A DNA stretch of 64,000 nt, from positions 62,001-126,000 of the forward strand of contig NZ_JAANHS010000002.1 in assembly GCF_011174775.1 (NCBI RefSeq). Direction: 5' to 3'. The notes beneath the pieces were generated by a model. It saw only the letters and a program-made list of their open reading frames with translations, made no database searches and was not told the DNA's origin. Origin of the DNA: Rhodobacter calidifons (lineage in GTDB: Bacteria; Pseudomonadota; Alphaproteobacteria; Rhodobacterales; Rhodobacteraceae). The position numbers were made by a program, and so were the translations under genes. Shown here piece by piece: positions 6,705 to 62,060 of this stretch (position 1 is its first letter; every line of letters begins with the position of its first letter).

Positions 6705-6761
6705 GTATCTACCTGCGGTATATACGTTCGAAAAGTGTAGTTACACTTTGTGTATACGTTC
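6705..6761. promoter_or_regulatory. Operator-like palindrome flanked by direct repeats upstream of the BrnA-type gene
   Basis: The 203-bp gap between the divergent DUF2157 and BrnA-type genes is unusually AT-rich. It holds an 8-2-8 palindrome AAAGTGTA-GT-TACACTTT (6732-6749), flanked by two direct copies of TATACGTTC (6721-6729 and 6753-6761), one GTATATAC (6718-6725) and one GTATCTAC (6705-6712). The palindrome is about 80 bp before the BrnA-type start. Ribbon-helix-helix antitoxins usually repress their own promoter through such inverted repeats, so this is the obvious candidate operator. Binding is inferred, not shown. Confidence 0.6.
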
Positions 6762-6831
6762 AGACAGGGTTGCAAGGCCCTGCCAAACATAGAAGAATTA
6801 ACACGCCTGTGTCGTCCGAGGGAGTGCGTGA

Positions 6832-7122
6832 ATGGTGGAAGAGGGACCGAAGCGGCTGAGCATCGCCGAGAAGCGGGCGATGAATCTTCCCCTGGTGCTG
6901 CACGCCGAAAACCAGGTCGAGGACCGGCCGGACGAGGTTCTGGCGCAAGGCAGCTGGACCGAGACGGTCCTGCCCGAGCAGACGCGGAAGAAGCTGATCT
7001 CTCTGCGCGTCGATCCGGAGGTCCTGGAGTTCTTCAAGGCGCAGGGTCCGGGCTATCAGACGCGGATGAATGCCGTCCTCCAGGCCTACATGCAGGTCAA
7101 GAAGGAGATGGGCAGGGGCTGA
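6832..7122 (+). CDS. Orphan BrnA-family antitoxin-like DNA-binding protein
   Basis: A 96-residue protein. Its C-terminal half ([18 protein letters not shown], then [16 protein letters not shown]) matches the BrnA antitoxin ribbon-helix-helix domain, in which the strand contacts DNA and the GxGYQTRxNAVL segment forms the helices. The N-terminal half is charged and unlike the toxin-binding part of known BrnA. No BrnT toxin gene lies next to it on either strand, so it appears to be a solitary regulator. Its last 26 bp overlap the 3' end of convergent hslV. The start at 6832 follows the operator-like region. Family assignment is good; function is open. Confidence 0.8.
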
Positions 7123-7681
7123 CCCCGGCACCGATCCGCTCGACCGTCAGGTTGCCGTTGGTATAGACGCAGATGTCGGCGGCGATGGCCATGGCGCGGC
7201 GGGCGATCTCTTCGGCCGGCAGGTCCGTTGCCATCAGGCCCCGGGCGGCGGCGAGGGCGAAGTTGCCGCCGGAGCCGATGGCGGCGACGTCATGTTCGGG
7301 TTCCAGCACGTCGCCGGCGCCGGTGATGACGTAAAGTGCCGCGCCGTCGGTGACGATCAGCATGGCTTCGAGGTTGCGCAGATACTTGTCCATGCGCCAG
7401 TCCTTGGCGAGATCGACGCAGGCGCGGGCGAGCTGGCCGGGGGCGGCCTCCAGCTTCTTTTCCAGCCGTTCCAGCAGGGTGAAGGCATCGGCGGTGGACC
7501 CGGCGAAGCCCGCGACGACCTCGTGGCCGCCGGGGGACAGGCGGCGGACCTTGCGGGCGGTGCCCTTGATGACCGTCTGGCCCAGCGAGACCTGGCCGTC
7601 GCCGGCCACCACGACCTCGCCGCCGCGGCGGACCGCAAGGATGGTGGTGCCGTGCCAGCCGGGGAATGTGTCGTCCGCCAT
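7097..7681 (-). CDS. hslV: ATP-dependent protease peptidase subunit HslV
   Basis: A 194-residue protein starting [20 protein letters not shown]. The first Thr of the HGTT motif (residue 12) becomes the N-terminal catalytic threonine after propeptide removal. The conserved [16 protein letters not shown] and [11 protein letters not shown] segments are present. HslV forms the double-hexamer peptidase chamber of the HslUV protease. An in-frame ATG lies 16 codons upstream, but the chosen start gives the standard alphaproteobacterial N-terminus. The gene is in the same orientation as DUF2157-hslU but separated from them by the opposite-strand BrnA-type gene, which its 3' end overlaps. Confidence 0.97.
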
Positions 7682-7725
7682 GATGCCCTCCGTTTGGGAC
7701 CATATAGCCATCCCGGCGCGGCAAG

Positions 7726-7757
7726 GCAAAACGCCCGCGCCTTGCGGTGCGGGCGTT
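7726..7757 (-). terminator. Rho-independent terminator of rpsO
   Basis: Read on the minus strand, the stem AACGCCCGC / GCGGGCGTT (7749-7757 with 7730-7738) has a 10-nt loop and is followed by a short T-run (TTTT at 7728-7731). It lies about 20 bp after the rpsO stop codon, before hslV. Confidence 0.85.
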
Positions 7758-7777
7758 CGGTCCGACTGGTGCCGGGA

Positions 7778-10640: not shown

Positions 10641-10688
10641 AGGACGTGCGGCTTGGCGGGACCAGCCTGCCTGCGGCCAGGTGAGGGA

Positions 10689-11456: not shown

Positions 11457-11524
11457 CCCCGCGCAGGGATTGAATTCCGGCCCCCGGCGCGGCAATGAGG
11501 GGAAAGACCGGAGAGCTCCGCCCG

Positions 11525-30797: not shown

Positions 30798-31957
30798 GGG
30801 GTTTCCTGCAAACGACGTGCCGCGGCCTGTCCCGCCCAGCGGCCTGTGGCCCAGCAGGCGGTCAGGAGGTAGCCGCCCGTCGGGGCCTCCCAGTCCAGCA
30901 TTTCCCCGGCGGCGAAGGTGTTCGGCAAGGCTTCCAGTTCCAGATCGGGGGTGAGGGCGTCCCAGTCGATGCCGCCGGCCACGCTGATTGCCTCGTCCAG
31001 GGGGCGGGGGCCTTGCAGGGGGATGGGCAGGTGCTTGATGTGCGCGAACGGGTCGCTTCGGGCGAACTCCATCACCAGGGCGATCTGGGTTCGGTCGAGG
31101 CCGAGTTTGCGCAGTCGATTCGCGGTGCTTTCGCCGGGCCGCATCTTCGCCAGCCTTCGAGCAATGTCATCCTGCGTCAGGTCAGGCAAGAGGTCGAGGT
31201 GAAGTGTAGCTGCATCGCGCAGATACTTGTATATACTGTATATACCGCCGCCTTCGATCCCTCTGGAGGAGATGACGAACTCGCCAAGCGCCCGCTGCGG
31301 CCCGGCAATCAGGGCTATGCCTTTGACGGGGCGTCCGAAAAACGGTGCCATGTGGTGCGACCAGTCGACGTGGAACCCCATGTTGGCGGGCTGCCAGGGG
31401 GTGATCCGGACGCCCTTTGCCTCCAGCCAGGGGACCCAGGCGCCGTCAGAGCCGAGCCGTTGCCAGCTGGCACCGCCGAGGGCGAGGACGGTCACTTTCG
31501 GCATCAGGGTCCGGGGGCCATCGGGCGCGTCAAAGCGGAAGGCGCTGCCGTCAAAGCCGGTCCATCGCCAGCGGGTGCGGATTTCGACGCCCTGGGTTGC
31601 GAGACGCTGGAGCCAGGCACGGAGGAGGGGCGAGGCCTTCATTGCCACGGGAAAGACCCGGCCGGAGGAGCCTGTATATACGTCCTGCCCCAGAGCACGG
31701 CACCAGTCCTGCACCTGTTCGGGGCCGAAATCAGCCAGGATCGGGCGCAGGTGGGGGCAGTCGTAGCGGGTGACGAAGGTTTCCCACGGCTCGTCCCTGG
31801 TCACGTTCAGGCCGGATTTCCCGGCCATCAGGAACTTGCGGGCGACCGTGGGTTTGGCCTCACAGACAAGCACTTGCGCGCCGGTCTTCGCAAGCTCTTC
31901 GGCCGCCATCAGGCCAGCGGGGCCTGCGCCGATGACCAGTGCGTCAGGTTGCGCCAT
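30785..31957 (-). CDS. FAD-dependent oxidoreductase, BaiN/HI0933-type flavoprotein
   Basis: A 390-residue flavoprotein. The dinucleotide motif VIGAGPAGLMAAEELAKTG opens the protein, KFLMAGKSGLNVT is the family signature, and the C-terminal FAD segment is FAAGEMLDWEAPTGGYLLTA. The group (TIGR03862-like) has no firm substrate. The gene carries three copies of GTATATAC, two of them 9 bp apart (31229-31236, 31238-31245). Its start overlaps the MscS gene end by 14 bp. The C-terminal PPRT comes from the shared inverted repeat. Confidence 0.9.
   Translation of the reverse strand: MAQPDALVIGAGPAGLMAAEELAKTGAQVLVCEAKPTVARKFLMAGKSGLNVTRDEPWETFVTRYDCPHLRPILADFGPEQVQDWCRALGQDVYTGSSGRVFPVAMKASPLLRAWLQRLATQGVEIRTRWRWTGFDGSAFRFDAPDGPRTLMPKVTVLALGGASWQRLGSDGAWVPWLEAKGVRITPWQPANMGFHVDWSHHMAPFFGRPVKGIALIAGPQRALGEFVISSRGIEGGGIYSIYKYLRDAATLHLDLLPDLTQDDIARRLAKMRPGESTANRLRKLGLDRTQIALVMEFARSDPFAHIKHLPIPLQGPRPLDEAISVAGGIDWDALTPDLELEALPNTFAAGEMLDWEAPTGGYLLTACWATGRWAGQAAARRLQETPPRT
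31229..31245. repeat. Tandem GTATATAC copies inside the flavoprotein gene
   Basis: GTATATAC occurs at 31229-31236 and again at 31238-31245, one base apart. On the coding strand they read as part of G-I-Y-S-I-Y-K-Y. This is the closest pair of the octamer in the window; the wider pattern is given under findings. Confidence 0.7.
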
Positions 31958-36480: not shown

Positions 36481-37824
36481 ATGAACCAAAGCCTTGCCGA
36501 CCTGAGCCACGCCCTGCTGGAGGCCGCCCGCAAGGCGGGCGCCGACAGTGCCGATGCCCTGGCGGTCTCGGGGACTGCGGTCTCGATCGAGATCCGCAAG
36601 GGCGCGCTGGAGACGGCCGAACGGTCGGAAGGCGTCGAGATCGGGCTGCGGGTGTTGCTGGGCCGGCGGCAGGCCTGCGTCTCGGCTTCGGATACATCGC
36701 AGGCGACCATCCAGGCCCTGGCCGAGCGGGCCGTGTCCATGGCCCGCGAGGCGCCGGAGGATGCGACGGTCGGGCTGGCCGAGCCGTCGCAGCTTGCCTC
36801 GGGCTGGGATCTCGGGATGCTGGACCTGGCCGATCCGGCCGGCGAGCCGGCGGCGGCGACGCTGGAGACCCTGGCCCGGACGGCAGAGGCGGCGGCGCTG
36901 GAGGCCCATGGGATCACCCAGGTCGAGGCCGCGGCGTCCCACAGCCGGCGGGCGCTGCACATGGCGGCGACGAACGGGTTCTCCGGGGGCTATGGGCGGA
37001 CATCGACCTCGCTGTCGGCCGTGGCCTTCACCGGATCGGGGACCGGGATGCAGCGCGACCATGCCGGCGAGGGGCGTATATACGCCGCAGACCTGCCCTC
37101 GGCCGAGGAGATCGGTCGGCTGGCGGCAGAGCGGGCGCTGGCGCGGGTCGGCTCGGTGAAGCCCAGGACGGGAACCTTTCCCGTGGTCTATGACGAAAGG
37201 GTGGCGGCCTCGCTGGTGTCGCATCTGTTGTCGGCGATCAACGGCACCGCGATCGCGCGGGGCTCCAGCTGGGCGCGGGAACTTCTGGGCAAGCAAGTCC
37301 TGCCGACGGGCCTGTCGCTGATCGAAGACCCGCATCGGCCGCGTATCGGCGCGTCGCGGCCCTTCGACGGCGAGGGGCTGCCGACCCGGCGGCGTGAGAT
37401 CGTCGCCGACGGCGTGCTGACCGGCTGGGTGCTGGACCTGGCGACCGGGCGCAGGCTGGGCATGGCCTCTACCGGGAATGCGTCACGCGGGGTTTCGGCA
37501 CCGCCCTCGCCATCGACGACGAACATCGACCTGACGCAAGGGGTTGCCAGCCGGGAGGATCTGCTGAAGCAGATGGGAACCGGGCTTCTGGTGACCTCGA
37601 TGATCGGCGCGACGATCAACCCGACCACCGGGGACTATTCGCGCGGGGCTGCCGGGTTCTGGGTCGAGAACGGCGAACTGGCCTATCCGGTCCACGAATG
37701 CACCATCGCGGGAAACCTGCGCGACATGCTGTTGCGGATCGTTCCCGCCAACGACGCGCGGGCGCATCTGTCCACGCGGGTGCCGTCCTGCCTGATCGAC
37801 GGGATGACCCTTGCCGGCGCGTGA
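36481..37824 (+). CDS. pmbA: TldD/PmbA-family metalloprotease subunit
   Basis: A 447-residue protein of the PmbA (TldE) type: IEIRKGALETAERSEGVEIG, ASHSRRALHMAATNGFSGGY, LLSAINGTAIARGSSWAREL and GLLVTSMIGATINPTTGDYS. It lacks the HExxxH zinc motif of TldD, as expected for the partner subunit. The TldD-PmbA complex cleaves unstructured peptides and matures microcin-type products. The gene carries a GTATATAC at 37076-37083. Its 3' end overlaps the next gene by 14 bp. Confidence 0.93.
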   Translation: MNQSLADLSHALLEAARKAGADSADALAVSGTAVSIEIRKGALETAERSEGVEIGLRVLLGRRQACVSASDTSQATIQALAERAVSMAREAPEDATVGLAEPSQLASGWDLGMLDLADPAGEPAAATLETLARTAEAAALEAHGITQVEAAASHSRRALHMAATNGFSGGYGRTSTSLSAVAFTGSGTGMQRDHAGEGRIYAADLPSAEEIGRLAAERALARVGSVKPRTGTFPVVYDERVAASLVSHLLSAINGTAIARGSSWARELLGKQVLPTGLSLIEDPHRPRIGASRPFDGEGLPTRRREIVADGVLTGWVLDLATGRRLGMASTGNASRGVSAPPSPSTTNIDLTQGVASREDLLKQMGTGLLVTSMIGATINPTTGDYSRGAAGFWVENGELAYPVHECTIAGNLRDMLLRIVPANDARAHLSTRVPSCLIDGMTLAGA

Positions 37825-38587
37825 CCTGGCCCTTCTGACCGAGGCCGCGCGCGAGGCGGGGCGGATCGCGCTGCGCTATTGGCGGAAAGACCCGAAGGTC
37901 TGGGACAAGGGCGGCGAGCATGGGCCGGTGACCGAGGCCGACCTGGCCGTCAACGACATGCTGAAGGCGCGGCTGCTGGAGGCGCGGCCAGGCTACGGCT
38001 GGTTGTCCGAAGAGACGCCGGACAGCCCCGACCGGCTGACTGCCGAAGCGGTGTTCATCCTGGACCCGATTGACGGCACCCGCGCCTTCATCGCCGGCGA
38101 GGAAACCTGGGCGCACTCGCTGGCAGTCGCGCGAGAGGGCAGGATCACGGCGGGCGTCGTGTATCTGCCGGCGCTTGACCGTATATACACGGCTTCCGAG
38201 ACCTCTCCGGCGATGCGGGATGGCGAGCTGATTGCCGTCAGCGGGCGTGACCGGCTGGAGGGCGCCAACATCCTGACGACAAAGGCGAACATGGCGCCCG
38301 AGAAATGGCCCGGCGGGGTGCCGGAGATCACGCGCAGTTTCCGCGCCTCCCTGGCCTACCGGATGTGCCTGGCGGCCGAGGGACGGTTCGACGGGATGCT
38401 GACCCTGCGCGATGCCTGGGAGTGGGACATCGCCGCGGGGGCGCTGATCGCCGAAAGGGCGGGGGCGGTGGTGACCGACATGACCGGGGCGCCGTTGCGG
38501 TTCAACGCGGCAGGTGCGCGGGCGCAGGGGGTTCTGGCCCTGCCGCCGGGACCCCATGCCGAGGCCTTGGCGCGGCTGCAGGGTTAG
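37811..38587 (+). CDS. Inositol monophosphatase / CysQ-family phosphatase
   Basis: A 258-residue protein. The metal-binding motifs are VTEADLAVNDML, LSEETPD, the core FILDPIDGTRAFIAGEETWA, and WEWDIAAGALIAERAGAVV. These place it in the Li+-sensitive phosphatase family; the small size and context fit 3'(2'),5'-bisphosphate nucleotidase (CysQ) but inositol or histidinol phosphatase is possible. The start is TTG at 37811, inside pmbA, with GGGATGA upstream. It contains GTATATAC at 38181-38188. Confidence 0.85.
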   Translation: MPARDLALLTEAAREAGRIALRYWRKDPKVWDKGGEHGPVTEADLAVNDMLKARLLEARPGYGWLSEETPDSPDRLTAEAVFILDPIDGTRAFIAGEETWAHSLAVAREGRITAGVVYLPALDRIYTASETSPAMRDGELIAVSGRDRLEGANILTTKANMAPEKWPGGVPEITRSFRASLAYRMCLAAEGRFDGMLTLRDAWEWDIAAGALIAERAGAVVTDMTGAPLRFNAAGARAQGVLALPPGPHAEALARLQG

Positions 38588-44123: not shown

Positions 44124-44894
44124 TCAAGGCAGAGGGGGTGCGGCAAGCAAGCTTTCGACCGCATCCAGCATGGCTTCGGCATCGGGACGTGCGGCGATGG
44201 TCAGGGCAGCGTGCGGGATGTCACGCGAAGCCGCCGCAACGGCGGGGCTGATCGCTGCGATCCTGAGGTCGGACCGCAGCTGTGAAGGCATGGCCGCGTG
44301 GAACAGGCGCGCGCTTCTGGGCGAGAACAGCGGCAGGATCACGGGGCCGCCCTGCTGAAGCACACGCGCCGATTCATCCGAAAGTGGTAGCGCCTTCTGT
44401 AGATACACTTGTAAAGATATCGTCATGATACCTTCTGAATTCAATATCTTATCGACGTCTCCTGATGTATCTACGCCGTGTATGTATAGAATCCTGCCCT
44501 TGGGTGGGTCCGCCAGGATCGCCTTCACCAGGGCTTCGGCATCACCGTCGGCGGACCTTGGCCGGAACCCTGCCGCCGCTGCGGCGGCAGCGGTCGAGCG
44601 TCCGACGCACCAGGCCAGCTTAGGCAGGGGAACCCCCAGCCGCACCGCGCCCTCCACGCCGTGGGCCGAGGTGAAGACGACCGCGGCAAAAGGGCCATCG
44701 GGAAGGGCAGGAGACAGGAACTCCGGCGCCATCAAGGGTGCGACCAGGGGGCGAATCCTGTCACCAAGGCGGGAAAGCAGCCGCGCGGCAAAGGCCTCGG
44801 CCTGGGCGCGGGGCCGCGTGAGAAGCACCGGCAGGGTCGGATCGGCCGGGGACGGATCGGCCGGGGACGGATCGGATTGTCTCGCCATGCCCAT
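44124..44894 (-). CDS. hemD: Uroporphyrinogen-III synthase
   Basis: A 256-residue HemD-family protein: LLTRPRAQAEAFAARL, AAVVFTSAHGVEGAVRLGV, WCVGRSTAAAAAAAGFRP, RILYIHGVDTSGD and the C-terminal AAISPAVAAASRDI. It closes hydroxymethylbilane to uroporphyrinogen III for heme, siroheme and cobalamin. The start at 44894 follows AGG with 7-nt spacing; 44888 is possible. Two oddities: the N-terminus has a 15-bp tandem repeat giving SPADP twice, and codons at 44399-44474 are strikingly AT-rich. Confidence 0.9.
   Translation of the reverse strand: MGMARQSDPSPADPSPADPTLPVLLTRPRAQAEAFAARLLSRLGDRIRPLVAPLMAPEFLSPALPDGPFAAVVFTSAHGVEGAVRLGVPLPKLAWCVGRSTAAAAAAAGFRPRSADGDAEALVKAILADPPKGRILYIHGVDTSGDVDKILNSEGIMTISLQVYLQKALPLSDESARVLQQGGPVILPLFSPRSARLFHAAMPSQLRSDLRIAAISPAVAAASRDIPHAALTIAARPDAEAMLDAVESLLAAPPLP
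44839..44875. repeat. 15-bp tandem repeat in the hemD 5' end
   Basis: The unit GGATCGGCCGGGGAC is repeated 2.5 times without change. It is in frame and encodes a repeated Ser-Pro-Ala-Asp-Pro near the HemD N-terminus, before the folded domain. Copy number could vary between strains. Confidence 0.75.
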
Positions 44895-47894: not shown

Positions 47895-48596
47895 ATGAAG
47901 ATCAGCGAAGACCTGCACGAGCGCAAGCGCGGGACCGGCGCCCGTTTCGTCTATGAGACCTTGCGCGAGGAGATCCTTGATCTGGTCCTGCTTCCGGGCG
48001 AGCCCGTGGACGAGATCGGTCTGGCCGAGAGGCTGTCCATGTCCCGCACGCCGGTGCGCGAGGCGCTGGTGCGGCTGGCGGCCGACGGTCTGGTCACGCT
48101 GTTGCCCAATCGCTCGACCATCGTGGCGCAGATCGATTTCCCGAACCTGCACCATTATTTCGACGCGCTGACCCTGATGTATCGCATGACCACCCGGCTT
48201 GCGGCCGAGTTTCATGACCAGGCCGAACTTGCCACCATCCGGGACCGTCAGCTGGACTACTCGCGCGCCGTGTTGTCCGGGGATACCGCCGGAATGATCC
48301 ATCGCAACCGCGACTTTCACATCGCCATCGCCGAAGCGGGACGCAATCCCTATTACCTGCAACTCTTCGCGCGGCTTCTGGACGAGGGGCGGCGCATCCT
48401 GGGGCTGTATTACTACCCCACGTTCGAGCCGCGGCTGCCGCATCCGTATATACAAGAGCACGAAGCCATCATCGCCGCCATCGCGGAACGGGATATCGAG
48501 ACCTGCGACCGGCTGGCCAGGGAACATGCAGACGGGATCGTGCAGCAGATCCAGACCATGATCGCGCGCGATCACCGGCGGGACGTCGCGTTGTGA
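47895..48596 (+). CDS. GntR/FCD-family transcription regulator
   Basis: A 233-residue regulator. The winged helix is FVYETLREEILDLVLLPGEP and GLAERLSMSRTPVREALVRL. The FCD ligand domain has the conserved metal-site residues in HRNRDFHIAIAEAGRN and EHEAIIAAIAERD. It precedes the hydroxyproline-type genes by 82 bp in the same direction, with a TTGTCGACAA site in the gap, so it most likely represses them and itself. It contains GTATATAC at 48446-48453. About 200 bp upstream hold no gene. Confidence 0.9.
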   Translation: MKISEDLHERKRGTGARFVYETLREEILDLVLLPGEPVDEIGLAERLSMSRTPVREALVRLAADGLVTLLPNRSTIVAQIDFPNLHHYFDALTLMYRMTTRLAAEFHDQAELATIRDRQLDYSRAVLSGDTAGMIHRNRDFHIAIAEAGRNPYYLQLFARLLDEGRRILGLYYYPTFEPRLPHPYIQEHEAIIAAIAERDIETCDRLAREHADGIVQQIQTMIARDHRRDVAL

Positions 48597-48678: not shown

Positions 48679-49638
48679 ATGAATTCGGACATCTTCTCGG
48701 GCACGATCCCGGCCCTGATGACGCCTTGCAAGGCAGACCGCACGCCCGACTTCGATGTCCTCGTTGCCAAGGCGAAAGAGCTGATCGGTCTGGGCATGTC
48801 GGCGGTGGTCTACTGCGGCTCGATGGGCGACTGGCCGCTTCTGACGACCGAGCAGCGGATGGAAGGTGTCGAACGTCTGGTGAGGGCGGGGATCAGGGTG
48901 GTCGTCGGGACAGGTGCTGTAAATACGGCCACTTCCGCGGCCATTGCGGCCCATGCCCGGAAAGTCGGGGCGCATGGCCTGATGGTGATTCCGCGCCTGC
49001 TGTCGCGGGGCACGGTCGTCGCGGCGCAACGGTTGCACTTCAAGACCGTGCTTTCGGCTGCGCCCGACCTTCCCGCCGTGATCTACAACAGCCCCTATTA
49101 TGGCTATTCCACCAAGGCCGACCTGTTCTTCCAGCTCCGGGCCGAGCATCCGAACCTGGTCGGCTTCAAGGAATTCGGCGGCTATGCCGACCTGTCCTAT
49201 GCGGCCAATGCGATCACCGGGGCGTCGCCGGACCTCAGGCTGATGATCGGTGTCGATACAGCCGTCTACCACGGCTACGTCAACTGCAACGCCGATGGTG
49301 CGATCACCGGGATCGGCAACGTGCTCCCGCGCGAGGTGCTGCATCTGGTCGCGCTGTGCAAGGCCGCCCGGAAAGGGGATGCCGTGGCGCGGCGGCTGGC
49401 CTGGGAGCTGGACCAGGCGATGCAGGTTCTGTCGGAAGTCGATGCCGGGCCGGACCTGGTGCTGTTCTTCAAGCACATGATGGTCCTGCGCGGCGAGACC
49501 GCGTATCTACACCACTTCAACGAAGGCGACGAGCTGACGGCCAGCCAGAAGGGCTTCATCGAGGCGCAACTGAAGATGTTCGACGCCTGGTATGCCGATT
49601 GGGCCAGGCAGCCGGAGGCGCGCAAATACGCCGCCTGA
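48679..49638 (+). CDS. Dihydrodipicolinate-synthase-family enzyme, probable pyrroline-4-hydroxy-2-carboxylate deaminase
   Basis: A 319-residue class I aldolase-fold enzyme. The start MNSDIFSGTIPALMTPCKAD follows GAGGAG. YNSPYYGYS carries the conserved Tyr, and the Schiff-base lysine is K164 in NLVGFKEFGGYA. In hydroxyproline degradation a member of this family removes ammonia from pyrroline-4-hydroxy-2-carboxylate to give alpha-ketoglutarate semialdehyde. The assignment comes mainly from the two genes that follow. Dihydrodipicolinate synthesis is unlikely given this context. Confidence 0.8.
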   Translation: MNSDIFSGTIPALMTPCKADRTPDFDVLVAKAKELIGLGMSAVVYCGSMGDWPLLTTEQRMEGVERLVRAGIRVVVGTGAVNTATSAAIAAHARKVGAHGLMVIPRLLSRGTVVAAQRLHFKTVLSAAPDLPAVIYNSPYYGYSTKADLFFQLRAEHPNLVGFKEFGGYADLSYAANAITGASPDLRLMIGVDTAVYHGYVNCNADGAITGIGNVLPREVLHLVALCKAARKGDAVARRLAWELDQAMQVLSEVDAGPDLVLFFKHMMVLRGETAYLHHFNEGDELTASQKGFIEAQLKMFDAWYADWARQPEARKYAA

Positions 49639-49639
49639 C

Positions 49640-50872
49640 ATGACCGAAGTCATCGTCATCGGGGCCGGGGTGATCGGCCTCTCCGCCGCGCTGATGGCAC
49701 AGGCGCGGGGGCTTTCGGTCACTGTGGTTGACCGCGAAGGCCCCGCTGCGGGCGCCTCGGCCGGGAACGCGGGGGCCTTTGCCTTCACGGACATCCTGCC
49801 TCTGGCTTCACCCGGACTCCTGCGCAAGGCCCCGAAATGGTTGCTGGATCCGCTTGGCCCGCTGACCATCCCGCCGGCCTATGCCGTGCAGATCACGCCA
49901 TGGCTCTACCGATTCTGGCGCGCTTGCTCCCCCCGCGCCGTCGCCGCCTCCACCGCCGCGCAGACCGCGCTGATGGACCTGTCCCGGGCGGAGCTGGAAC
50001 CGTTTCTGGCGGCAACCGGCACCCTGGGAATGCTGAGAAAGGACGGAAACCTTCAGGTCTATGAGACCGAAGCCGAATTCCGCGCCTCTCTTCCCGGCTG
50101 GGAGGCGCGAACCGCCCACGGAATCGATTTCCGCCACATGGGGCCGGAGGAGATGGCCGCGCTGCAACCCGGTCTCTCCTCCCGGTTCATCCGTGGCACC
50201 TTCACTCCCGGCTGGTGGTCCATCGCCGACCCCTTGCTGTATGTACAGGCCCTCGCCGACCGCTTCCGCGCTGCGGGCGGCCGTATCGACACCGCCGAAG
50301 TCACCGGCCTCAGCCCTCGGGACGGCCGCGTGTATATACGAACGAAGGTCGGGACGCTGACGGCCGACAGGGTCGTCCTGGCCGCCGGGGCCTTTTCGCA
50401 CCGCATTGCCGCCACCTTGGGCGAGCGCATCCCGCTGGAGACCGAACGCGGCTACAACACCACGCTGCCCCTCGACGCGCTGGACCTGCGCTGCCAGATC
50501 ACCTTCGGCGGCCATGGTTTTGTCATCTCGCGCCTTTCGACGGGCATCCGGGTCGGCGGGGCGGTGGAACTGGGTGGATTGTCGCTGCCGCCGAACTATA
50601 GGCGGTCCGAGGCCATGCTGCGGAAGGCAAAGGCTTTTCTTCCTGCGCTGAACACCGAAGGCGGAAGGCCGTGGATGGGCTTCCGCCCCTCGCTGCCGGA
50701 CAGCCTGCCGGCCATCGGCCGGTCCAAGGCTTCGCCGCACATTGTCCATGCCTTCGGTCACGGCCACCTGGGCCTGACCCAAAGCGCCGGGACCGCGCGG
50801 CTGGCGGCGGACCTGTTGACCGATGCGGCGCCCGCGATCAACCTGACCCCGTTCTCGCCGCAACGCTTCTAG
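49640..50872 (+). CDS. FAD-dependent D-amino-acid oxidoreductase, probable D-hydroxyproline dehydrogenase
   Basis: A 410-residue DadA/DAO-type flavoprotein. The FAD motif is VIVIGAGVIGLSAALMAQAR, followed by REGPAAGASAGNAGAF. C-terminal segments PWMGFRPSLPDSLPAIGRS and HIVHAFGHGHLGLTQSAGTA are typical of DadA. It would oxidise cis-4-hydroxy-D-proline to the pyrroline. Its ATG lies one base after the stop of the preceding gene, so they are coupled. GTATATAC occurs at 50332-50339. Confidence 0.82.
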   Translation: MTEVIVIGAGVIGLSAALMAQARGLSVTVVDREGPAAGASAGNAGAFAFTDILPLASPGLLRKAPKWLLDPLGPLTIPPAYAVQITPWLYRFWRACSPRAVAASTAAQTALMDLSRAELEPFLAATGTLGMLRKDGNLQVYETEAEFRASLPGWEARTAHGIDFRHMGPEEMAALQPGLSSRFIRGTFTPGWWSIADPLLYVQALADRFRAAGGRIDTAEVTGLSPRDGRVYIRTKVGTLTADRVVLAAGAFSHRIAATLGERIPLETERGYNTTLPLDALDLRCQITFGGHGFVISRLSTGIRVGGAVELGGLSLPPNYRRSEAMLRKAKAFLPALNTEGGRPWMGFRPSLPDSLPAIGRSKASPHIVHAFGHGHLGLTQSAGTARLAADLLTDAAPAINLTPFSPQRF

Positions 50873-50902: not shown

Positions 50903-51904
50903 ATGGCCGTATATACGTTCTCCTGCCTCGACGGGCATACCTGCGGCAATCCGGTGCGGCTGGTTTCCGGTGGTGGGCCCCGGTTGGCAGGTGCGACGAT
51001 GCTGGAGCGCCGGGCGCATTTTCTGAGGGATTACGACTGGATACGGACCGGACTGATGTTCGAGCCGCGGGGGCATGACATGATGTCGGGGTCGATCCTC
51101 TATCCGCCGACGCGGCCCGATTGCGACGTTGGGGTGCTGTTCATCGAGACCTCCGGCTGTCTGCCGATGTGCGGGCACGGGTTGATCGGGACGGTGACGA
51201 TGGGCATCGAGAACGGGTTGATTACGCCGCGCGAACCGGGGCAGTTGGCGGTGGATGCTCCGGCGGGGAAGGTGGAGGTTGCGTATATACAGGACGGGCG
51301 GTTCGTCGAGGAAGTGCGACTGACCAATGTGCCGGGATTCCTTTATTCTGAGGGGCTTACGGCGGAGGTTGAGGGTCTGGGCGAGGTCGTGGTAGACGTG
51401 GCCTATGGCGGGAACTTCTACGCGATTGTCGAGCCGCAGAAGTGCTTCCGCGATCTGGCCGACCATACGGCGGGGGAGCTGCTGGGGTGGTCGCCGAAGC
51501 TGCGGGCGGCGCTGAATGCGAAGTATGAGTTCGTGCATCCCGAGCATCCGGCGATCCGGGGGCTGAGCCATATCCTGTGGACGGGCAAGCCCACGGTGCC
51601 GGGGGCGCATGCCCGTAACGCCGTGTTCTATGGGGAAAAAGCGATTGATCGCAGCCCCTGCGGGACGGGAACCTCGGCCCGGATGGCGCAACTGGCGGCG
51701 AAGGGGAAGTTGCGCGTGGGGGACGAGTTCCACCATGAGAGCATCATCGGGTCGATCTTCAAGGGGCGGGTCGAGGCGGCGGTGACGGTGGCGGGACGGG
51801 AAGCGATCGTGCCCTCCATCGCCGGGTGGGCGCGGCAGACGGGGATCAACACGATCTTCATCGACGACCGCGATCCGTTTGCGCACGGATTCGTGGTGAA
51901 ATAG
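50903..51904 (+). CDS. 4-hydroxyproline epimerase (proline racemase family)
   Basis: A 333-residue protein. The two catalytic cysteines are C90 (TSGCLPMCGHGLIGTV) and C253 (DRSPCGTGTSARMA). The Cys-Cys pair separates it from trans-3-hydroxyproline dehydratases, which have Thr at the second position. It interconverts trans-4-hydroxy-L-proline and cis-4-hydroxy-D-proline. The start follows GGAGG; an upstream ATG at 50873 is less likely. GTATATAC occurs at 50909-50916 and 51293-51300. Confidence 0.92.
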   Translation: MAVYTFSCLDGHTCGNPVRLVSGGGPRLAGATMLERRAHFLRDYDWIRTGLMFEPRGHDMMSGSILYPPTRPDCDVGVLFIETSGCLPMCGHGLIGTVTMGIENGLITPREPGQLAVDAPAGKVEVAYIQDGRFVEEVRLTNVPGFLYSEGLTAEVEGLGEVVVDVAYGGNFYAIVEPQKCFRDLADHTAGELLGWSPKLRAALNAKYEFVHPEHPAIRGLSHILWTGKPTVPGAHARNAVFYGEKAIDRSPCGTGTSARMAQLAAKGKLRVGDEFHHESIIGSIFKGRVEAAVTVAGREAIVPSIAGWARQTGINTIFIDDRDPFAHGFVVK

Positions 51905-51957
51905 CGGCCGTTCCGGCGTTCGCAGCGTTAGATCAAGGGGTTGGCTGTAGATACGGC

Positions 51958-54358: not shown

Positions 54359-55132
54359 CTATTCCACGCCCAGCACGTCAGGGGTCTGCCAGCCCAGATG
54401 CTGGCCGCCATCGACTGCGATGAACTGGCCGGTCACGGCGGGGCTGTCGAGGAAGAATCCCAGCGCGGCCGTGATGTCGGAGGGGTTCGCGCCGCGGCGC
54501 AGGATGGTGGCGGCGCGCTGGCGGGTGAAGTGTTCGGCCGACTGGCGCGCGCCCTGAAGCGTGGGGCCGGGGCCGATTGCGTTGACGCGGATATGGGGCG
54601 CAAGGCCCTGGGCGGCGGTGCGGGTCAGCGCCCAGAGGCCCATCTTGGCGATGGTGTAGGTGCTGAACTCGGGCGTCGGTTTCAGGATGCGCTGGTCGAT
54701 CATGTTGACGATCAGGCCCCGGGCGAGGGGTTCCGCGTTTTCGTCGGTGGTGGCCTGGGGGCACTGGCGGGCGAAGCCCTGCGTCAGGACATAGGGCGCG
54801 CGGAGATTCGATTCGATGTGCCGGTCCCAGCTTTCGCGGGTCGCGGTGTCGATGCGGTCGTATTCGAAGATCGAGGCGTTGTTGACCAGAACGGTCAGCG
54901 GCCCGAGGGCCGCCGTGACGGCAGGGATCAGCGCCTGTGTCTCGGCTTCGACAAGCAGGTCGGCCCGGAAGGTCTGCGCCTTGCGGCCCGTGGCGCGGAT
55001 TTCCTCGGCGACTGCCTCAGCTTCCTCTGCCGAGGCCGAATAGTGGACCGCCACGTCATGGCCGCGCCCCGCGAGGTAAAGTGCCATCGCGCGGCCCAGC
55101 CGCTTGCCCGCCCCCGTCACCAGTGCCGTCAT
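54359..55132 (-). CDS. SDR-family oxidoreductase, pteridine-reductase-like
   Basis: A 257-residue Rossmann-fold dehydrogenase. The cofactor motif is ALVTGAGKRLGRAMALYLAG, the strand LVNNASIF follows, and the catalytic Tyr-Lys pair is in STYTIAKMGLWALT. The usual catalytic Ser is replaced by the MIDQR stretch, as in FolM/pteridine-reductase-like members. The Arg in GKRLG suggests NADPH. The start at 55132 overlaps the upstream zinc-ribbon gene by 4 bp. Substrate is inferred only. Confidence 0.85.
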   Translation of the reverse strand: MTALVTGAGKRLGRAMALYLAGRGHDVAVHYSASAEEAEAVAEEIRATGRKAQTFRADLLVEAETQALIPAVTAALGPLTVLVNNASIFEYDRIDTATRESWDRHIESNLRAPYVLTQGFARQCPQATTDENAEPLARGLIVNMIDQRILKPTPEFSTYTIAKMGLWALTRTAAQGLAPHIRVNAIGPGPTLQGARQSAEHFTRQRAATILRRGANPSDITAALGFFLDSPAVTGQFIAVDGGQHLGWQTPDVLGVE

Positions 55133-56166: not shown

Positions 56167-57048
56167 ATGATCGACAAGCTGGAAATGTTCATCGCGCTGG
56201 CAAAGGAACGGCACTTCGGCCGCGCGGCGGAGGTCTGCGGGGTGACGCAGCCCTCGCTGTCCAGCGCGATCCGGCAGCTGGAGGATCAACTGGGCGTGCA
56301 GCTGGTGTTCCGGGGCAGCCGCTTCCAGGGCCTGACGCCGGAAGGCCAGCGGGTGCTGGACCGGGCGCTGGGCATCGTGGGTGACGTGCGGGCGTTGAAG
56401 GACGAGATGCGGGTGGTGCGGTCGGGCCTGTCGGGCAACCTGCGGATCGGGGTGATCCCGACGGCCCTGCCGATGGTGGCCGATCTGACGGGGCCTTTCA
56501 CGCAGAAGCACCCGAATGTGCGGGTGTCCATCCTGTCGCGGACGAGCATCGAGATCCTGACGGGCATCGAGGCCTTGGACCTGGAGGCGGGCATCACCTA
56601 TCTGGACAACGAGCCGCTGGGCCGGGTGTCTCAGGTGCCGCTTTACACCGAGTTCTACCGGCTGCTGATCGCCCCCGGATCGGACATGGCCTCGCGGCGG
56701 CAGGTGAGTTGGGCGGATCTCTCGGCTGTTCCCCTGTGCCTTCTGACCTCTGACATGCAGAACCGGCGGATCGTGAACCAGCATCTGGGCGAGGCGGGGG
56801 TGGTGGCCCAGCCGATGATCGAGTCGAACTCCACCATGGCGCTGGTCGCCCATGTGCTGACCGGGCGCTGGGCGAGCGTGGTGCCGAAGAAGCTGGCCGA
56901 CATGTTCGTGGCGGATGGGCGGCTGGTGTCGATCCCCATCGTCGAGCCGGAGGCCGAGCATACCGTGGGCCTGATCGCGGCGCGGCGGGACCCGCAGACT
57001 CCGGTCTTGCAGGCGCTGGTGGACGAGGCGGCGCGGCTATTTCGATAG
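56167..57048 (+). CDS. LysR-family regulator, probably of the fds operon
   Basis: A 293-residue LysR-type protein. The helix-turn-helix is FGRAAEVCGVTQPSLSSAIR, followed by QLEDQLGVQLVFRGSRF. The C-terminal ligand domain begins near residue 90 (GNLRIGVIPTALPMVADLTG). It precedes fdsG by 89 bp in the same direction. An ATAG-N7-CTAT site overlaps its last codons, which fits LysR-type control of the fds operon, as in Cupriavidus FdsR. Ligand is unknown. Confidence 0.85.
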   Translation: MIDKLEMFIALAKERHFGRAAEVCGVTQPSLSSAIRQLEDQLGVQLVFRGSRFQGLTPEGQRVLDRALGIVGDVRALKDEMRVVRSGLSGNLRIGVIPTALPMVADLTGPFTQKHPNVRVSILSRTSIEILTGIEALDLEAGITYLDNEPLGRVSQVPLYTEFYRLLIAPGSDMASRRQVSWADLSAVPLCLLTSDMQNRRIVNQHLGEAGVVAQPMIESNSTMALVAHVLTGRWASVVPKKLADMFVADGRLVSIPIVEPEAEHTVGLIAARRDPQTPVLQALVDEAARLFR

Positions 57049-57596: not shown

Positions 57597-59098
57597 AGGT
57601 CTTCGTTCCTCTGGATTCGGCGGCGGTTGCGCTGGGGGCTGACCGGATCGCCGAGGCGATTGTGGCCCAGGGCGCGGCGCGCGGGGTGACGGTGCAGGTG
57701 GTCCGCAATGGCTCGCGCGGGATGGTCTGGCTGGAGCCGCTGGTCGAGGTGGAGGTGGATGGTGTCCGCCACGGCTTCGGCCCGATGACTCTGGCCGATG
57801 TGCCGGGGCTGTTCAGCGATCTGGCGTCGCACCCGAAGGCCATCGGCCCGGTCGAGGCGCATCCCTGGATGAAGGGCCAGACGCGGTTGACCTTTGCCCG
57901 GGTGGGCGTGATCGACCCGCTGTCGCTGGACGACTACCGCGCGCATGGCGGGCTGGTGGGGCTGGACCGCGCCCGGGGGATGACCAGGGCCGAGATTGTC
58001 GCCGAGGTGACGGAGTCCGGCTTGCGCGGTCGCGGTGGGGCCGGGTTCCCGACCGGGATCAAGTGGAAGACCGTCTCGGAAGCTGCGGGCGACCAGAAAT
58101 ACATCGTCTGCAACGCGGATGAGGGCGACAGCGCCACCTTCGCCGACCGGATGCTGATGGAGGGCGATCCTTTCTGCCTGATAGAGGGCATGGCGATTGC
58201 GGGCCTCGCCTGCGGGGCTACCAAGGGCTATGTGTATATACGTTCTGAATATCCGGTGGCGATCCGGGTGATGGAGGCGGCCGTTCGGATCGCGCGCGAG
58301 GCCGGGGTGCTGGGCGCGGCCTTCGACATGGAAATCCGCGTCGGTGCAGGGGCCTATGTCTGCGGCGAGGAGACCAGCCTCCTGAACAGCCTTGAGGGCA
58401 AGCGCGGGGTGGTCCGCGCCAAGCCGCCGCTGCCGGCGCTACAGGGGTTCCTGGGGCGGCCTACCGTGGTGAACAACGTGATTTCCTTGGCGTCTGTGCC
58501 GGTGATCCTGGCGAAGGGCGCGGCCTTCTACAAGGACTTCGGGCTGGGCCGGTCGCGCGGGACGATCCCGTTGCAGATTGCCGGGAACGTGAAATACGGC
58601 GGGTTGTATGAGGTGGCCTTCGGGCTGACCCTGGGCGAGATCGTCAACGGGATCGGCGGCGGCACGGCCAGTGGCCGGCCGGTGAAGGCGGTACAGGTGG
58701 GCGGGCCCCTGGGCGCCTGGTTCCCGCCCGCGCTGTTCGACACGCCCTTCGGGTATGAGGAGTTCGGCGCGAAGGACGGGCTGATCGGCCATGCCGGCCT
58801 GACCGTCGCCGACGACACGGTTGACATGTTGCAGATGGCGCGCTTTGCGATGGAGTTCTGCGCGATCGAGTCCTGCGGGAAATGCACGCCCTGCCGGATC
58901 GGCTCGACCCGGGGGGTGGAGACCATTGACCGGCTGGCCCGGGGCGATGCCAGCGCGCTGCCGATCCTGACCGACCTGTGCAACACGATGAAATTCGGCT
59001 CGCTCTGCGCGCTTGGGGGCTTCACGCCCTATCCGGTGCTGAGCGCGCTGACGCATTTCCCCGATGACTTCGCCCGGCAGCGGGAGGCCGCAGAATGA
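57593..59098 (+). CDS. fdsB: NAD-dependent formate dehydrogenase beta subunit FdsB
   Basis: A 501-residue NuoF-like protein. An N-terminal thioredoxin-like domain precedes the FMN/NADH domain (GLRGRGGAGFPTGIKWKTVS, CNADEGDSATFADR, GAGAYVCGEETSLLNSLEG). The 4Fe-4S cluster is ESCGKCTPCRIGSTRG plus a later Cys. It reduces NAD+ with electrons from formate. It contains GTATATAC at 58234-58241 (coding VYIR). It is coupled to fdsG and followed by tandem palindromes before fdsA. Confidence 0.97.
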   Translation: MKVFVPLDSAAVALGADRIAEAIVAQGAARGVTVQVVRNGSRGMVWLEPLVEVEVDGVRHGFGPMTLADVPGLFSDLASHPKAIGPVEAHPWMKGQTRLTFARVGVIDPLSLDDYRAHGGLVGLDRARGMTRAEIVAEVTESGLRGRGGAGFPTGIKWKTVSEAAGDQKYIVCNADEGDSATFADRMLMEGDPFCLIEGMAIAGLACGATKGYVYIRSEYPVAIRVMEAAVRIAREAGVLGAAFDMEIRVGAGAYVCGEETSLLNSLEGKRGVVRAKPPLPALQGFLGRPTVVNNVISLASVPVILAKGAAFYKDFGLGRSRGTIPLQIAGNVKYGGLYEVAFGLTLGEIVNGIGGGTASGRPVKAVQVGGPLGAWFPPALFDTPFGYEEFGAKDGLIGHAGLTVADDTVDMLQMARFAMEFCAIESCGKCTPCRIGSTRGVETIDRLARGDASALPILTDLCNTMKFGSLCALGGFTPYPVLSALTHFPDDFARQREAAE

Positions 59099-59103
59099 GG
59101 CTG

Positions 59104-59149
59104 CAAAATTCTTCGAAGAATTTTGCCAAGATTTTTCGAAAAATCTTGG
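59104..59149. repeat. Two tandem perfect palindromes between fdsB and fdsA
   Basis: The first is 22 bp (59104-59125, half-site CAAAATTCTTC) and the second 24 bp (59126-59149, half-site CCAAGATTTTTC). Both centre on TTCGAA and abut with no spacer. Each can form a loopless or tetraloop hairpin in the mRNA. They lie between two genes of one operon, so they more likely stabilise or attenuate the message than end it. Their AT content contrasts with the operon. Confidence 0.85.
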
Positions 59150-59183
59150 CCCGCGCGGGTGGACAGGTTCCGAGGAGGACCGC

Positions 59184-62060
59184 ATGAAGGACTTCATCAT
59201 CCCCGACCGCGATTTCGGCACTCCGGCTGCCAGGTCGAAGACCATGGTCACGCTGACCATCGACGGCTTTGAAGTGACGGTGCCGGAAGGCACCAGCATC
59301 ATGCGCGCGGCGGCGGAGATCGGGATTTCGGTTCCGAAACTGTGCGCGACGGACAGTCTGGAGGCCTTCGGGTCCTGCCGTCTCTGCCTGGTGGAGATCG
59401 AGGGGCGGGCAGGAACGCCGGCCTCCTGCACCACGCCGGTGGCGCCGGGGCTGAAGGTTCACACCCAGACCGGCAAGCTGAAGCAGCTGCGGCGCGGGGT
59501 GATGGAGCTGTATATCTCGGACCACCCGCTGGACTGCCTGACGTGCAGCGCAAACGGCGATTGCGAGTTGCAGGACATGGCGGGGGCGGTGGGCCTGCGC
59601 GATGTGCGGTATGAGGCTGTAGATACGCATTTCAAGCCGCGCAACACCAGCGGCGAGGCGAACCCGCTGTATATACCGCGCGACGATTCCAACCCCTATT
59701 TCAGCTATGATCCGCAGAAATGCATCGTATGCAGCCGCTGCGTGCGGGCCTGCGAGGAAGTGCAGGGGACCTTTGCGCTGACCATCGAGGGGCGGGGCTT
59801 CGACAGCCGGGTGTCCTTCGGCGCGAAGTCGGACAATGCGCTGGCCAGCGATTGCGTGTCTTGCGGCGCCTGCGTGCAGGCCTGCCCGACGGCGACCTTG
59901 CAGGAGAAGTCGGTGATCGAGATCGGGACGCCGGACCGGTCGATCATCACCACCTGCGCCTATTGCGGGGTGGGCTGTTCGTTCAAGGCCGAGATGCGCG
60001 GCGACGAGCTGGTGCGCATGACGCCCTACAAGCACGGCAAGGCCAACCGGGGGCACAGCTGCGTCAAGGGCCGGTTTGCCTATGGCTATGCCACGCACAA
60101 GGACCGCATCCTGAAGCCGATGATCCGCGAGACCATCGAGGAGCCCTGGCGAGAAGTGTCCTGGGCCGAGGCGATGGAGTTCGCCGCCGCCAGGATGAAG
60201 GGCATCCAGGCGAAATACGGGCGCAATTCGGTGGGGGTCATCACCTCCAGCCGCTGCACCAACGAGGAAGCCTATCTGGTCCAGAAACTCGCCCGGGCGG
60301 TGTTCCGCAACAACAACACCGACACCTGCGCGCGGGTCTGCCATTCGCCCACCGGCTATGGGCTGGGGCAGACTTTCGGCACCAGCGCGGGCACGCAGGA
60401 CTTTGATTCGGTCGAGGAAGCCGATGTCATCATGGTCATCGGTGCGAACCCCCATGCCGGGCATCCGGTCTTCGCCAGCCGGATGAAGAGGCGGCTGCGC
60501 CAGGGGGCGAAGCTGATCGTCGTCGATCCCCGGCGCACGGAAACGGTGGAAGGCCCGCATTACAAGGCGGCGCATCATCTGGCGCTGACGCCGGGGACGA
60601 ACGTCGCCGTGGTCTCGGCCATGGCGCATGTGATCGTGACCGAGAAGCTCTACAATGAAGAGTTCATCCGCAGCCGCTGCGACTGGGACGAGTTCCTGGA
60701 CTATGCCGAGTTCATCAGCGACCCGCGTCACAGCCCCGAGGCGGTGGAGCTGGTCACCGGCGTCCCGGCCGAGGAGCTGCGCGCGGCGGCGCGGCTCTAT
60801 GCCACCGGCGGCAATGCGGCGATCTACTACGGGCTTGGGGTGACAGAGCACAGCCAGGGCTCCACCACCGTGATCGGGATCGCCAACCTCGCCATGCTGA
60901 CCGGCAATATCGGGCGGCGCGGCGTGGGGGTGAACCCTCTGCGGGGGCAGAACAACGTGCAGGGGTCCTGTGACATGGGGTCCTTCCCGCATGAACTGCC
61001 GGGCTACCGCCATGTGAAGAACCCGGAAGTCCGCGCGATCTATGAGGCGGCCTGGGGTGTCAAGCTGGACCCGGAACCCGGCCTGCGCATCCCGAACATG
61101 CTGGACGCCGCCGTGGAAGGCACGTTCAAGGGGCTCTATTGCCAGGGTGAGGACATCCTGCAATCCGACCCCGACACGAAGCACGTTGCGGCGGGTCTGG
61201 CGGCGATGGAATGCGTGATCGTCCACGACCTGTTCCTGAACGAGACGGCGAATTACGCGCATGTGTTCTTCCCCGGCTCCACCTTCCTGGAAAAGGACGG
61301 GACCTTCACCAATGCCGAACGCCGGATCAACATGGTCCGCAAGGTGATGGCTCCGAAGCAGGGCTATGCCGACTGGGAAGTGACCCAGATGTTTGCGAAC
61401 GCGATGGGGGCGAACTGGGGTTACACGCATCCCAGCCAGATCATGGAAGAAATCGCCATGACCACGCCGTCCTTCGCGGGCGTGACCTACGAGAAGCTGG
61501 AGACGCTGGGCAGCGTCCAGTGGCCCTGCAACGAAAAGGCGCCCGAGGGCACTCCGCTGATGCACATCGACGGCTTCGTGCGCGGCAAGGGCAAGTTCAT
61601 CCGCACCGAATATGTGGCGACGGACGAAAAGACCGGGCCGCGCTTCCCGCTGCTGCTGACAACGGGGCGTATCCTGTCGCAGTACAACGTGGGCGCGCAG
61701 ACGCGGCGGACGGCGAATGTGGTCTGGCATGATGAGGATGTGCTGGAGATCCACCCGCACGATGCGGAAAACCGCGGCATCCGCGAGGGCGACTATGTGC
61801 GGCTGGCCAGCCGGTCGGGGGAGACGACCTTGCGGGCGACGCTGACCGACAAGGTGCCTCCCGGCGTGGTCTATACGACCTTCCACTTCCCCGGAACGCA
61901 GGCGAACGTCATCACCACCGACTTCAGCGACTGGGCGACCAACTGCCCGGAATACAAGGTGACGGCGGTGCAGGTCTCGCCGTCCAACGGTCCGTCCGAG
62001 TGGCAGAAGGAATACGAGGCCCAGGCCGCCCGGTCGCGCCGGATTCTGGCGGCGGAATGA
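59184..62060 (+). CDS. fdsA: NAD-dependent formate dehydrogenase alpha subunit FdsA (Mo, Fe-S)
   Basis: A 958-residue protein. Cluster ligands in order: 2Fe-2S (C54, C65, C68, C82), a His-ligated 4Fe-4S (H114, C118, C121, C127), two ferredoxin-type 4Fe-4S (C180/183/186/190 and C224/227/230/234), and the catalytic-domain 4Fe-4S (C258, C261, C265, C293). The molybdenum ligand is C386 in ARVCHSPTGYG, with the adjacent His, so it uses Cys and not Sec. It oxidises formate to CO2 with a bis-MGD cofactor. The start follows GAGGAGGA. It carries GTAGATAC (59619) and GTATATAC (59669). Confidence 0.98.
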   Translation: MKDFIIPDRDFGTPAARSKTMVTLTIDGFEVTVPEGTSIMRAAAEIGISVPKLCATDSLEAFGSCRLCLVEIEGRAGTPASCTTPVAPGLKVHTQTGKLKQLRRGVMELYISDHPLDCLTCSANGDCELQDMAGAVGLRDVRYEAVDTHFKPRNTSGEANPLYIPRDDSNPYFSYDPQKCIVCSRCVRACEEVQGTFALTIEGRGFDSRVSFGAKSDNALASDCVSCGACVQACPTATLQEKSVIEIGTPDRSIITTCAYCGVGCSFKAEMRGDELVRMTPYKHGKANRGHSCVKGRFAYGYATHKDRILKPMIRETIEEPWREVSWAEAMEFAAARMKGIQAKYGRNSVGVITSSRCTNEEAYLVQKLARAVFRNNNTDTCARVCHSPTGYGLGQTFGTSAGTQDFDSVEEADVIMVIGANPHAGHPVFASRMKRRLRQGAKLIVVDPRRTETVEGPHYKAAHHLALTPGTNVAVVSAMAHVIVTEKLYNEEFIRSRCDWDEFLDYAEFISDPRHSPEAVELVTGVPAEELRAAARLYATGGNAAIYYGLGVTEHSQGSTTVIGIANLAMLTGNIGRRGVGVNPLRGQNNVQGSCDMGSFPHELPGYRHVKNPEVRAIYEAAWGVKLDPEPGLRIPNMLDAAVEGTFKGLYCQGEDILQSDPDTKHVAAGLAAMECVIVHDLFLNETANYAHVFFPGSTFLEKDGTFTNAERRINMVRKVMAPKQGYADWEVTQMFANAMGANWGYTHPSQIMEEIAMTTPSFAGVTYEKLETLGSVQWPCNEKAPEGTPLMHIDGFVRGKGKFIRTEYVATDEKTGPRFPLLLTTGRILSQYNVGAQTRRTANVVWHDEDVLEIHPHDAENRGIREGDYVRLASRSGETTLRATLTDKVPPGVVYTTFHFPGTQANVITTDFSDWATNCPEYKVTAVQVSPSNGPSEWQKEYEAQAARSRRILAAE

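Follow-up and report, generated by a model that had tools for sequence, protein, structure and literature searches.

MatP is a small ribbon-helix-helix protein with dispersed palindromic sites (matS), and Noc has sites over broad chromosome domains. MatP is enterobacterial and organises the terminus, and RacA of Bacillus binds the oriC-proximal part of the chromosome (both from excerpts of PMC7174722). The MerR-family protein ZapT of Caulobacter prefers the terminus and its flanks, with the origin as negative control (excerpts of PMC7858052). CdbA of Myxococcus is a ribbon-helix-helix protein needed for nucleoid organisation, for which excerpts of PMC7156744 give 569 peaks across the chromosome, a direct-repeat site, a genic position for most peaks and no role as a classical regulator. 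Here we analyse a 64-kb stretch of the Rhodobacter calidifons genome (the window: positions 62,001 to 126,000 of the 470-kb contig NZ_JAANHS010000002.1, called C22 below, of assembly GCF_011174775.1, 3.62 Mb in 59 contigs), in which the eight-base palindrome GTATATAC recurs, together with an orphan BrnA-family gene in the window whose product is the proposed GTATATAC-binding protein.

GTATATAC clusters in two chromosome domains, around the origin and around the terminus; the word is under selection, its sites co-occur with the BrnA-family gene across genomes, and the promoter of that gene carries a conserved array of such words. Because the word is selected around both chromosome ends and is linked to a small DNA-binding protein, we are probably dealing with a chromosome-marking and chromosome-organising system of bacteria that has not been described before. 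With a probability of roughly 0.6, GTATATAC would be the binding site of a BrnA-derived protein that marks or organises the origin and terminus domains in the manner of MatP, ZapT or RacA.

The window holds 12 exact copies of GTATATAC, the number given in a preliminary description of this DNA made from the letters alone; 11 of the 12 starts listed there were right, and the copy placed at 51293 begins at 51283. The six copies of GTAGATAC or GTATCTAC were all correctly located. The earlier estimate of about 0.15 copies by chance agrees with our 0.14 for independent bases, and the comparisons with Markov models and codon-shuffled genes that were suggested alongside it strengthen the excess. Markov models of order 1 to 5, with 259 kb of GTATATAC-free DNA from this genome as training set, predict 0.01–0.04 copies in 64 kb, and 100 dinucleotide shuffles of the window yielded none. 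Synonymous-codon shuffling of 52 predicted genes in 300 runs gave a mean of 0.30 and a maximum of 2 copies against the 12 observed, a number that includes the copy at 6718, really intergenic but counted as genic because the open reading frame assigned there was over-extended. Each of the other 63 eight-base palindromes of equal composition occurs at most once in the window. As had also been described, most copies are genic: 11 of the 12 lie within predicted coding sequences, those of functionally unrelated genes, and all three codon phases are occupied (genes were predicted by our own scoring). Of the single-base variants of GTATATAC, GTAGATAC alone shows a clear enrichment at the origin (six copies, with none at the terminus and none in the other DNA fetched); it occurs at nine places in the genome, six of them in the window. 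For the variant GTCTATAC, the corresponding counts are five, two and four.

By its PmbA hits, of which the best (87% identical) is from a Tabrizicola sp., the genome belongs near Tabrizicola in the Rhodobacteraceae. As a whole it contains 23 copies of GTATATAC, where 0.6–2.4 are expected. Fourteen are on C22, five on contig C57 and four on contig C55, and the other 56 contigs have none; a genome-wide motif was rejected on this restriction to 3 of 59 contigs. The 14 copies on C22 lie at 18.6–121.7 kb, a 103-kb stretch that spans parS from −38 to +65 kb. For one given 103-kb stretch, the probability of holding at least 14 of 23 copies is 1e-16, or 1e-14 allowing for the choice of stretch. C22 carries two copies of parS, an exact one at 56960 and another with one mismatch at 55058, with parA, parB, mnmG and rho nearby, and its guanine-cytosine (GC) skew switches from negative to positive near 40–42 kb. 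The stretch that holds both the skew change and parS, C22:18.7–60.4 kb, is free of GTATATAC.

The remaining nine copies occupy a stretch of about 246 kb that holds dif, at about −14.5, −10.7, +56, +58, +59, +131, +143, +143 and +231 kb from it, on a map whose join between C57 and C55 is borrowed from the relative G211, where the right ends of both are joined on one contig. A dif-like site lies on C57 between ndk and rpe. A genome-wide pattern allowing three mismatches failed to find dif; a looser score over the fetched DNA gave this one match, which was confirmed by comparison, the site being present in all four genomes in which the homologous stretch was read (our own, G000, and G004, G006 and G007). 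The skew on C57 switches from positive to negative near 128–148 kb and is noisy elsewhere on that contig; GC skew was noisy in general and uninformative on C55. Additionally, in G006, a genome of the same genus in five contigs, the markers of C57 and C55 lie opposite parA: on a 4.19-Mb contig that we assumed to be circular, parA is at 2.22 Mb, rpe at 0.04, glk at 0.08, trmFO at 0.24, gcvT-like at 0.32, hutI at 0.33 and uvrA at 4.12 Mb. A placement of C55 next to the origin contig, based on a distance coincidence in G004, was rejected, since that stretch had no counterpart in our own DNA fetched, and in G211 the neighbour of C55 is C57.

Sites that concentrate at both replication ends could instead serve replication control: in place of folding or anchoring the DNA, they would adjust initiation, by titration or blocking, or the termination of forks. 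Sites only 1–3 kb from the dif place in G007 and G004 would suit such a role. However, the sites are palindromic and reach as far as 65 kb from the origin and 231 kb from the terminus, and the stretch with the skew change and parS is the very one that lacks them. We therefore regard replication control as decidedly unlikely.

To ask whether the word itself is maintained, we compared our sites with those of six relatives that carry the BrnA-family gene (G004, G007, G008, G010, G211 and L005). In 63 of 83 comparisons the site was exact (two counts were adjusted by one for alignment gaps), where about 26 would be expected if they were conserved at the rate of other AT-rich 8-mers in these alignments. 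The weakest relative, G008, had 9 of 16 exact (p 0.03). In the gene-less relatives L006 and L007 (taken as G331 and G315) and G006, none of 11 comparisons was exact. The terminus gene trmFO holds two sites, both exact in 12 of the 13 gene-bearing genomes read; G317 has GTATCTAC at the second. The second site is missing from the partly read trmFO of G318, and G323 was left out of this comparison. Neither site is exact in any of 16 gene-less genomes, which mostly have GTCTATGC and GCATATCC, or similar, at these places. In translation, the 13 gene-bearing genomes have threonine and tyrosine; of the gene-less ones, 15 of 16 have alanine at the threonine place (G003 has threonine) and 15 of 16 histidine at the tyrosine place (G002 has asparagine). 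The gene-less genomes share similar non-motif codons, even those nested among gene-bearing ones on the trmFO tree. Other site positions turn over between species, and the mappable ones stay in the same regions. Thus GTATATAC itself is kept by selection.

A pattern without any function in the DNA, produced by chance, base composition, protein-level constraint or a modification or restriction motif, is scarcely credible. We found nothing in its favour, and it is contradicted by the Markov, palindrome and synonymous-shuffle controls, by the confinement to two domains, by the trmFO word accompanying amino acids that differ from those of gene-less genomes and by the near absence of sites where the gene was not found.

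In L007 (T. aquatica; gene-less if it is G315), the near-words GTATATGC, GTAGATTC and GTATAGAC stand at three origin-site positions, as if sites may erode after loss of the protein.

An orthologue of the BrnA-family gene is present in 15 of 32 genomes of the genus. We counted sites in two test regions, 6.5–20 kb around trmFO (terminus) and 3–31 kb around the TIGR03862 flavoprotein gene (origin), in 31 of the 32 genomes; G009, 59% complete, gave no test-region match, and G001 and G329 were without the flavoprotein stretch. Every one of the 15 genomes with the gene has sites at both places, 100 in total over 532 kb; 14 of 16 gene-less genomes have none there, with 3 in 556 kb for the set (Fisher 5e-7, uncorrected for relatedness). 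Six control palindromes are about equally frequent in the two sets. Whole-genome counts, which are free of the prior choice of regions, agree with the regional result: 18–27 copies of GTATATAC in the eight gene-bearing genomes counted and 0–4 in the five gene-less ones counted. G006 shows a clean absence of gene and operator, with about 9 bp where about 502 bp would otherwise stand, and its origin and terminus stretches read contain no GTATATAC.

We also surveyed 295 Rhodobacteraceae genomes, nearly all of different genera, with the reversed word as control. A close orthologue (E < 1e-40) occurs only in our own genome and G211, which have 23 copies against 2 controls and 21 against 0. A family-wide motif was rejected, as beyond these two no genome has at least 10 copies and exceeds its control (G079 has 26 of each); there are a few small excesses, such as 7 against 0 in G234 and 9 against 5 in G235. 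The next best homologue, 58% identical, is in G305, a genome of another genus with 7 copies against 2 and the same operator pair. Of these seven sites, three are no more than 10 kb away from the gene, one corresponds exactly to our site at C22:18649, two fall at 23–24 kb from the dif place, and the last could not be mapped.

The BrnA-family gene lies at C22:68832, inside the origin cluster and about 12 kb from parS. Its product carries the Pfam domain BrnA_antitoxin (PF14384; E 6e-18, 65 bits against a cut-off of 26); a Pfam scan at E 0.1 returned only this domain and a weak DUF3022, with no MatP and no MerR. The next gene downstream is hslV, and the frame scanned upstream is on the opposite strand and has no Pfam family, so no toxin gene is recognised beside it (the rest of the genome was not searched for brnT). 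Several other BrnA homologues that we fetched have a BrnT-like frame upstream, as read by eye. The N-terminal segment of ordinary BrnA is thought to contact the toxin. TDW is found in five of six ordinary BrnA proteins aligned (the sixth has TDR, and three have the full TDWxRL) and is missing from 9 of 9 orthologues; these lack the ordinary N-terminal segment and all have one 10-residue segment in common. The strand KKLISLRVD, which by the fold faces the DNA, is nearly as in ordinary BrnA.

Upstream of its own gene, the arrangement is GTATCTAC-N5-GTATATAC and GTAGTTAC-N5-GTGTATAC, with 13-bp spacing within each pair. All 16 orthologues whose promoters were read, 15 from the genus and that of G305, have GTATATAC there. 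In the promoters of relatives the letters drift and the array stays, often near GTATATAC-N13-ATATATAC-N5-GTATATAT.

Orphan BrnA-like genes also stand beside hslU-like sequence (by eye) in G262, G152 and G137 (L156, L158 and L159), from three other genera, with GTAGATAC, TGTATATACA or TGTATATATAC upstream. These genomes have no genome-wide excess of GTATATAC (2, 2 and 7 copies against 5, 3 and 8 controls). It is possible that such genes represent the ancestral state; they suggest that GTATATAC may have been an autoregulatory operator first and have spread later as domain marks.

The preliminary description had offered a DNA-binding or chromosome-organising motif, or else a modification site, as explanations. 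The first fits very well with the confinement to origin and terminus, the exact conservation in unrelated genes and the co-occurrence with one DNA-binding protein. The modification site finds no support, because nothing would be expected to restrict a methylation motif to two chromosome domains (no methyltransferase search was made). An excess limited to the window had been named as grounds for abandoning the motif. The excess is indeed restricted, to two domains with the window in one of them and not to the window alone. The objection thus holds by half, but such a pattern is the one expected of a domain mark.

We propose that the protein, the likely binder, originated as the antitoxin of a BrnT/BrnA toxin-antitoxin pair and has no recognisable toxin gene alongside. 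As a ribbon-helix-helix protein, expected from the fold to be a dimer, it would read GTATATAC, repress its own gene via the promoter array and also bind about twenty dispersed sites, which selection would have placed in two parts of the chromosome. Nucleoprotein clusters would then form at the origin and terminus domains and might gather, anchor or condense them, and the bound domains could be brought together or tied to the pole or division site. More tentatively, and with some doubt on our part, an antitoxin turned organiser would use one word for origin and terminus and physically couple both domains, mutually or to shared cell structures. To our knowledge, this would be the first single site family known to define both ends of a bacterial chromosome.

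Compared with the described systems, the candidate most resembles parts of several. Like MatP with matS, it is a small protein of the ribbon-helix-helix type whose proposed sites are dispersed palindromes restricted to chromosome domains, and 9 of the 23 sites cluster around dif. In contrast to MatP, it is not matched by the MatP Pfam model, belongs to the BrnA family and is much shorter, its site is another one, and sites are not excluded from the origin, where 14 of 23 lie around parS. ZapT, going by the excerpts of its paper, is likewise an alphaproteobacterial terminus-binding protein with many dispersed sites, but the protein here is of the BrnA family, has no MerR match at E 0.1 and would have sites at both ends. 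The 14 short sites near oriC recall RacA-like origin anchoring, and RacA and Noc bind the oriC-proximal part or broad chromosome domains; their families are unrelated to the protein here, and we know of no terminus cluster for either. With CdbA, as excerpted, it has the ribbon-helix-helix family and genic sites in common; CdbA binds broadly at a direct repeat, whereas here an 8-bp palindrome occurs in two domains. With BrnT/BrnA it shares the BrnA domain and the near-identical strand expected to face DNA, and it differs in having no recognisable BrnT gene alongside, no TDW segment and dispersed chromosomal sites. It is not a ParB/parS system, which has a ParB-type protein and TGTTTCACGTGAAACA sites: motif and family differ, and a separate parA-parB-parS is present.

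MatP, ZapT and RacA are each known to mark one chromosome end, and we know of none among the systems compared that marks both ends with one word, as the system here would. We found no account of such an origin and terminus marking system in the literature; records retrieved with the string GTATATAC included none on the bacterial chromosome by title and abstract start, and those on BrnA with the origin of replication held nothing relevant by title. As a toxin-antitoxin part found in only some species of one genus, the gene provides a natural experiment: comparing species with and without it could show what domain marks do and what becomes of them where the protein is missing. The trmFO sites could show how sites persist inside genes together with amino-acid changes, and an orphan antitoxin gains a testable role.

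Several points weigh against this interpretation. Both test regions were picked because our own genome has sites there. Without the gene, G325 has two test-region sites and G320 one; the 59% complete G009 has 12 sites and no gene detected; and the seven copies of G234 (78% complete, no orthologue at E 1e-12) are spread on six contigs. Seven of the relatives' sites read are unmatched in our own DNA fetched, and some of the relatives' sites are unread. On a tree built from three genes in 25 genomes, two changes suffice to explain where the gene occurs, and both independent pairs go in the expected direction (sign test p 0.5). For the trmFO tree (30 genomes) three changes are required, and trmFO alone and the three-gene set give different trees; the history may be ancestral presence with losses, or several gains. 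With so few changes, the correlation is strong in extent and rests on few events, and the promoter array and position conservation are support independent of it. The AlphaFold monomer is weak (predicted local distance difference test score, pLDDT, 69), Foldseek gave no match at E 0.001 and a PDB profile search nothing credible. Since the DNA-facing strand is nearly the same in ordinary BrnA, sequence alone does not single out this protein as the only possible binder. Lastly, the location of a few sites in promoters means that the role could extend to transcription.

Two further alternatives were weighed. One is that a different protein binds GTATATAC and the BrnA-like gene is a mere target travelling along, for which the small number of independent events, a comparison confined to this one gene, and the sites of G009 and G234 without a detected gene could be cited. 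We consider it very unlikely, as the BrnA-like gene lies in the origin cluster, has the promoter array in each of the orthologues read and went undetected in genomes nearly free of sites.

The other is a transcription regulator that represses its own gene and others, with the genic sites acting as roadblocks or at regulated internal promoters. The promoter array of the BrnA-family gene would fit, as would the array at C57:121612, located between genes and ahead of a SLAC1-like one, and the site at C22:18649 near divergent LuxR-type and ABC-transporter starts, exact in four relatives including one of another genus. But 11 of the 12 window sites are inside predicted coding sequences whose functions are unrelated (one site only 36 bp past a gene start), the clustering follows distance to oriC and dif and not gene function, and positions turn over between species while the mappable ones remain in the same regions. 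A regulator is therefore unlikely, and marking of the two chromosome domains remains our preferred explanation. The features of the window are collected in Table 1.

Table 1. Copies of GTATATAC and GTAGATAC, the BrnA-family gene and its operator array, in window coordinates. Site conservation was compared with gene-bearing relatives only, as many as aligned at each site.
Feature	Position	Strand	Location or content	Exact in relatives
GTATATAC	6718..6725		intergenic, operator upstream of BrnA-family gene	
GTATATAC	31229..31236		TIGR03862 flavoprotein gene	4/6
GTATATAC	31238..31245		same TIGR03862 flavoprotein gene, 9 bp past 31229	3/6
GTATATAC	31674..31681		same TIGR03862 flavoprotein gene	5/6
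GTATATAC	37076..37083		PmbA/TldD peptidase gene	5/6
GTATATAC	38181..38188		inositol monophosphatase-family gene	4/6
GTATATAC	48446..48453		GntR/FCD regulator gene	4/5 aligned
GTATATAC	50332..50339		D-amino-acid dehydrogenase-like gene	3/5 aligned
GTATATAC	50909..50916		proline racemase-family gene, 36 bp past predicted start	5/5 aligned
GTATATAC	51283..51290		same proline racemase-family gene	4/5 aligned
GTATATAC	58234..58241		NuoF-like gene, formate dehydrogenase cluster	1/3 aligned (G211)
GTATATAC	59669..59676		formate dehydrogenase alpha gene	2/3 aligned (G007, G211)
GTAGATAC	44399..44406	+	AT-rich patch of hemD	0/3
GTAGATAC	44467..44474	-	same hemD patch	2/3
GTAGATAC	49503..49510	-	DHDPS-family gene	0/3
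GTAGATAC	51947..51954	+	directly past proline racemase-family gene	2/2
GTAGATAC	59619..59626	+	formate dehydrogenase alpha gene	1/2
Operator array	6705..6757		GTATCTAC 6705, GTATATAC 6718, GTAGTTAC 6737, GTGTATAC 6750 (from sequence)	
Orphan BrnA-family ribbon-helix-helix gene	6832..7122	+	96 residues; proposed GTATATAC-binding protein	

Three of the individual sites have features of their own. The GTATATAC at C22:18649, near the divergent starts of genes for a LuxR-type regulator and an ABC transporter, has its exact counterparts in G007, G010, G211 and the other-genus G305, where the surrounding identity is 64–71%, and is perhaps the oldest dispersed site. At C57:121612, the intergenic pair upstream of the SLAC1-like channel gene reads GTATATAC-GTGC-GTATATAT and resembles the operator of the BrnA-family protein itself. 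Within hemD, the patch at 44395-44500 forms about 100 bp of AT-rich DNA in a genome of 67% GC and contains two inverted copies of GTAGATAC 68 bp apart.

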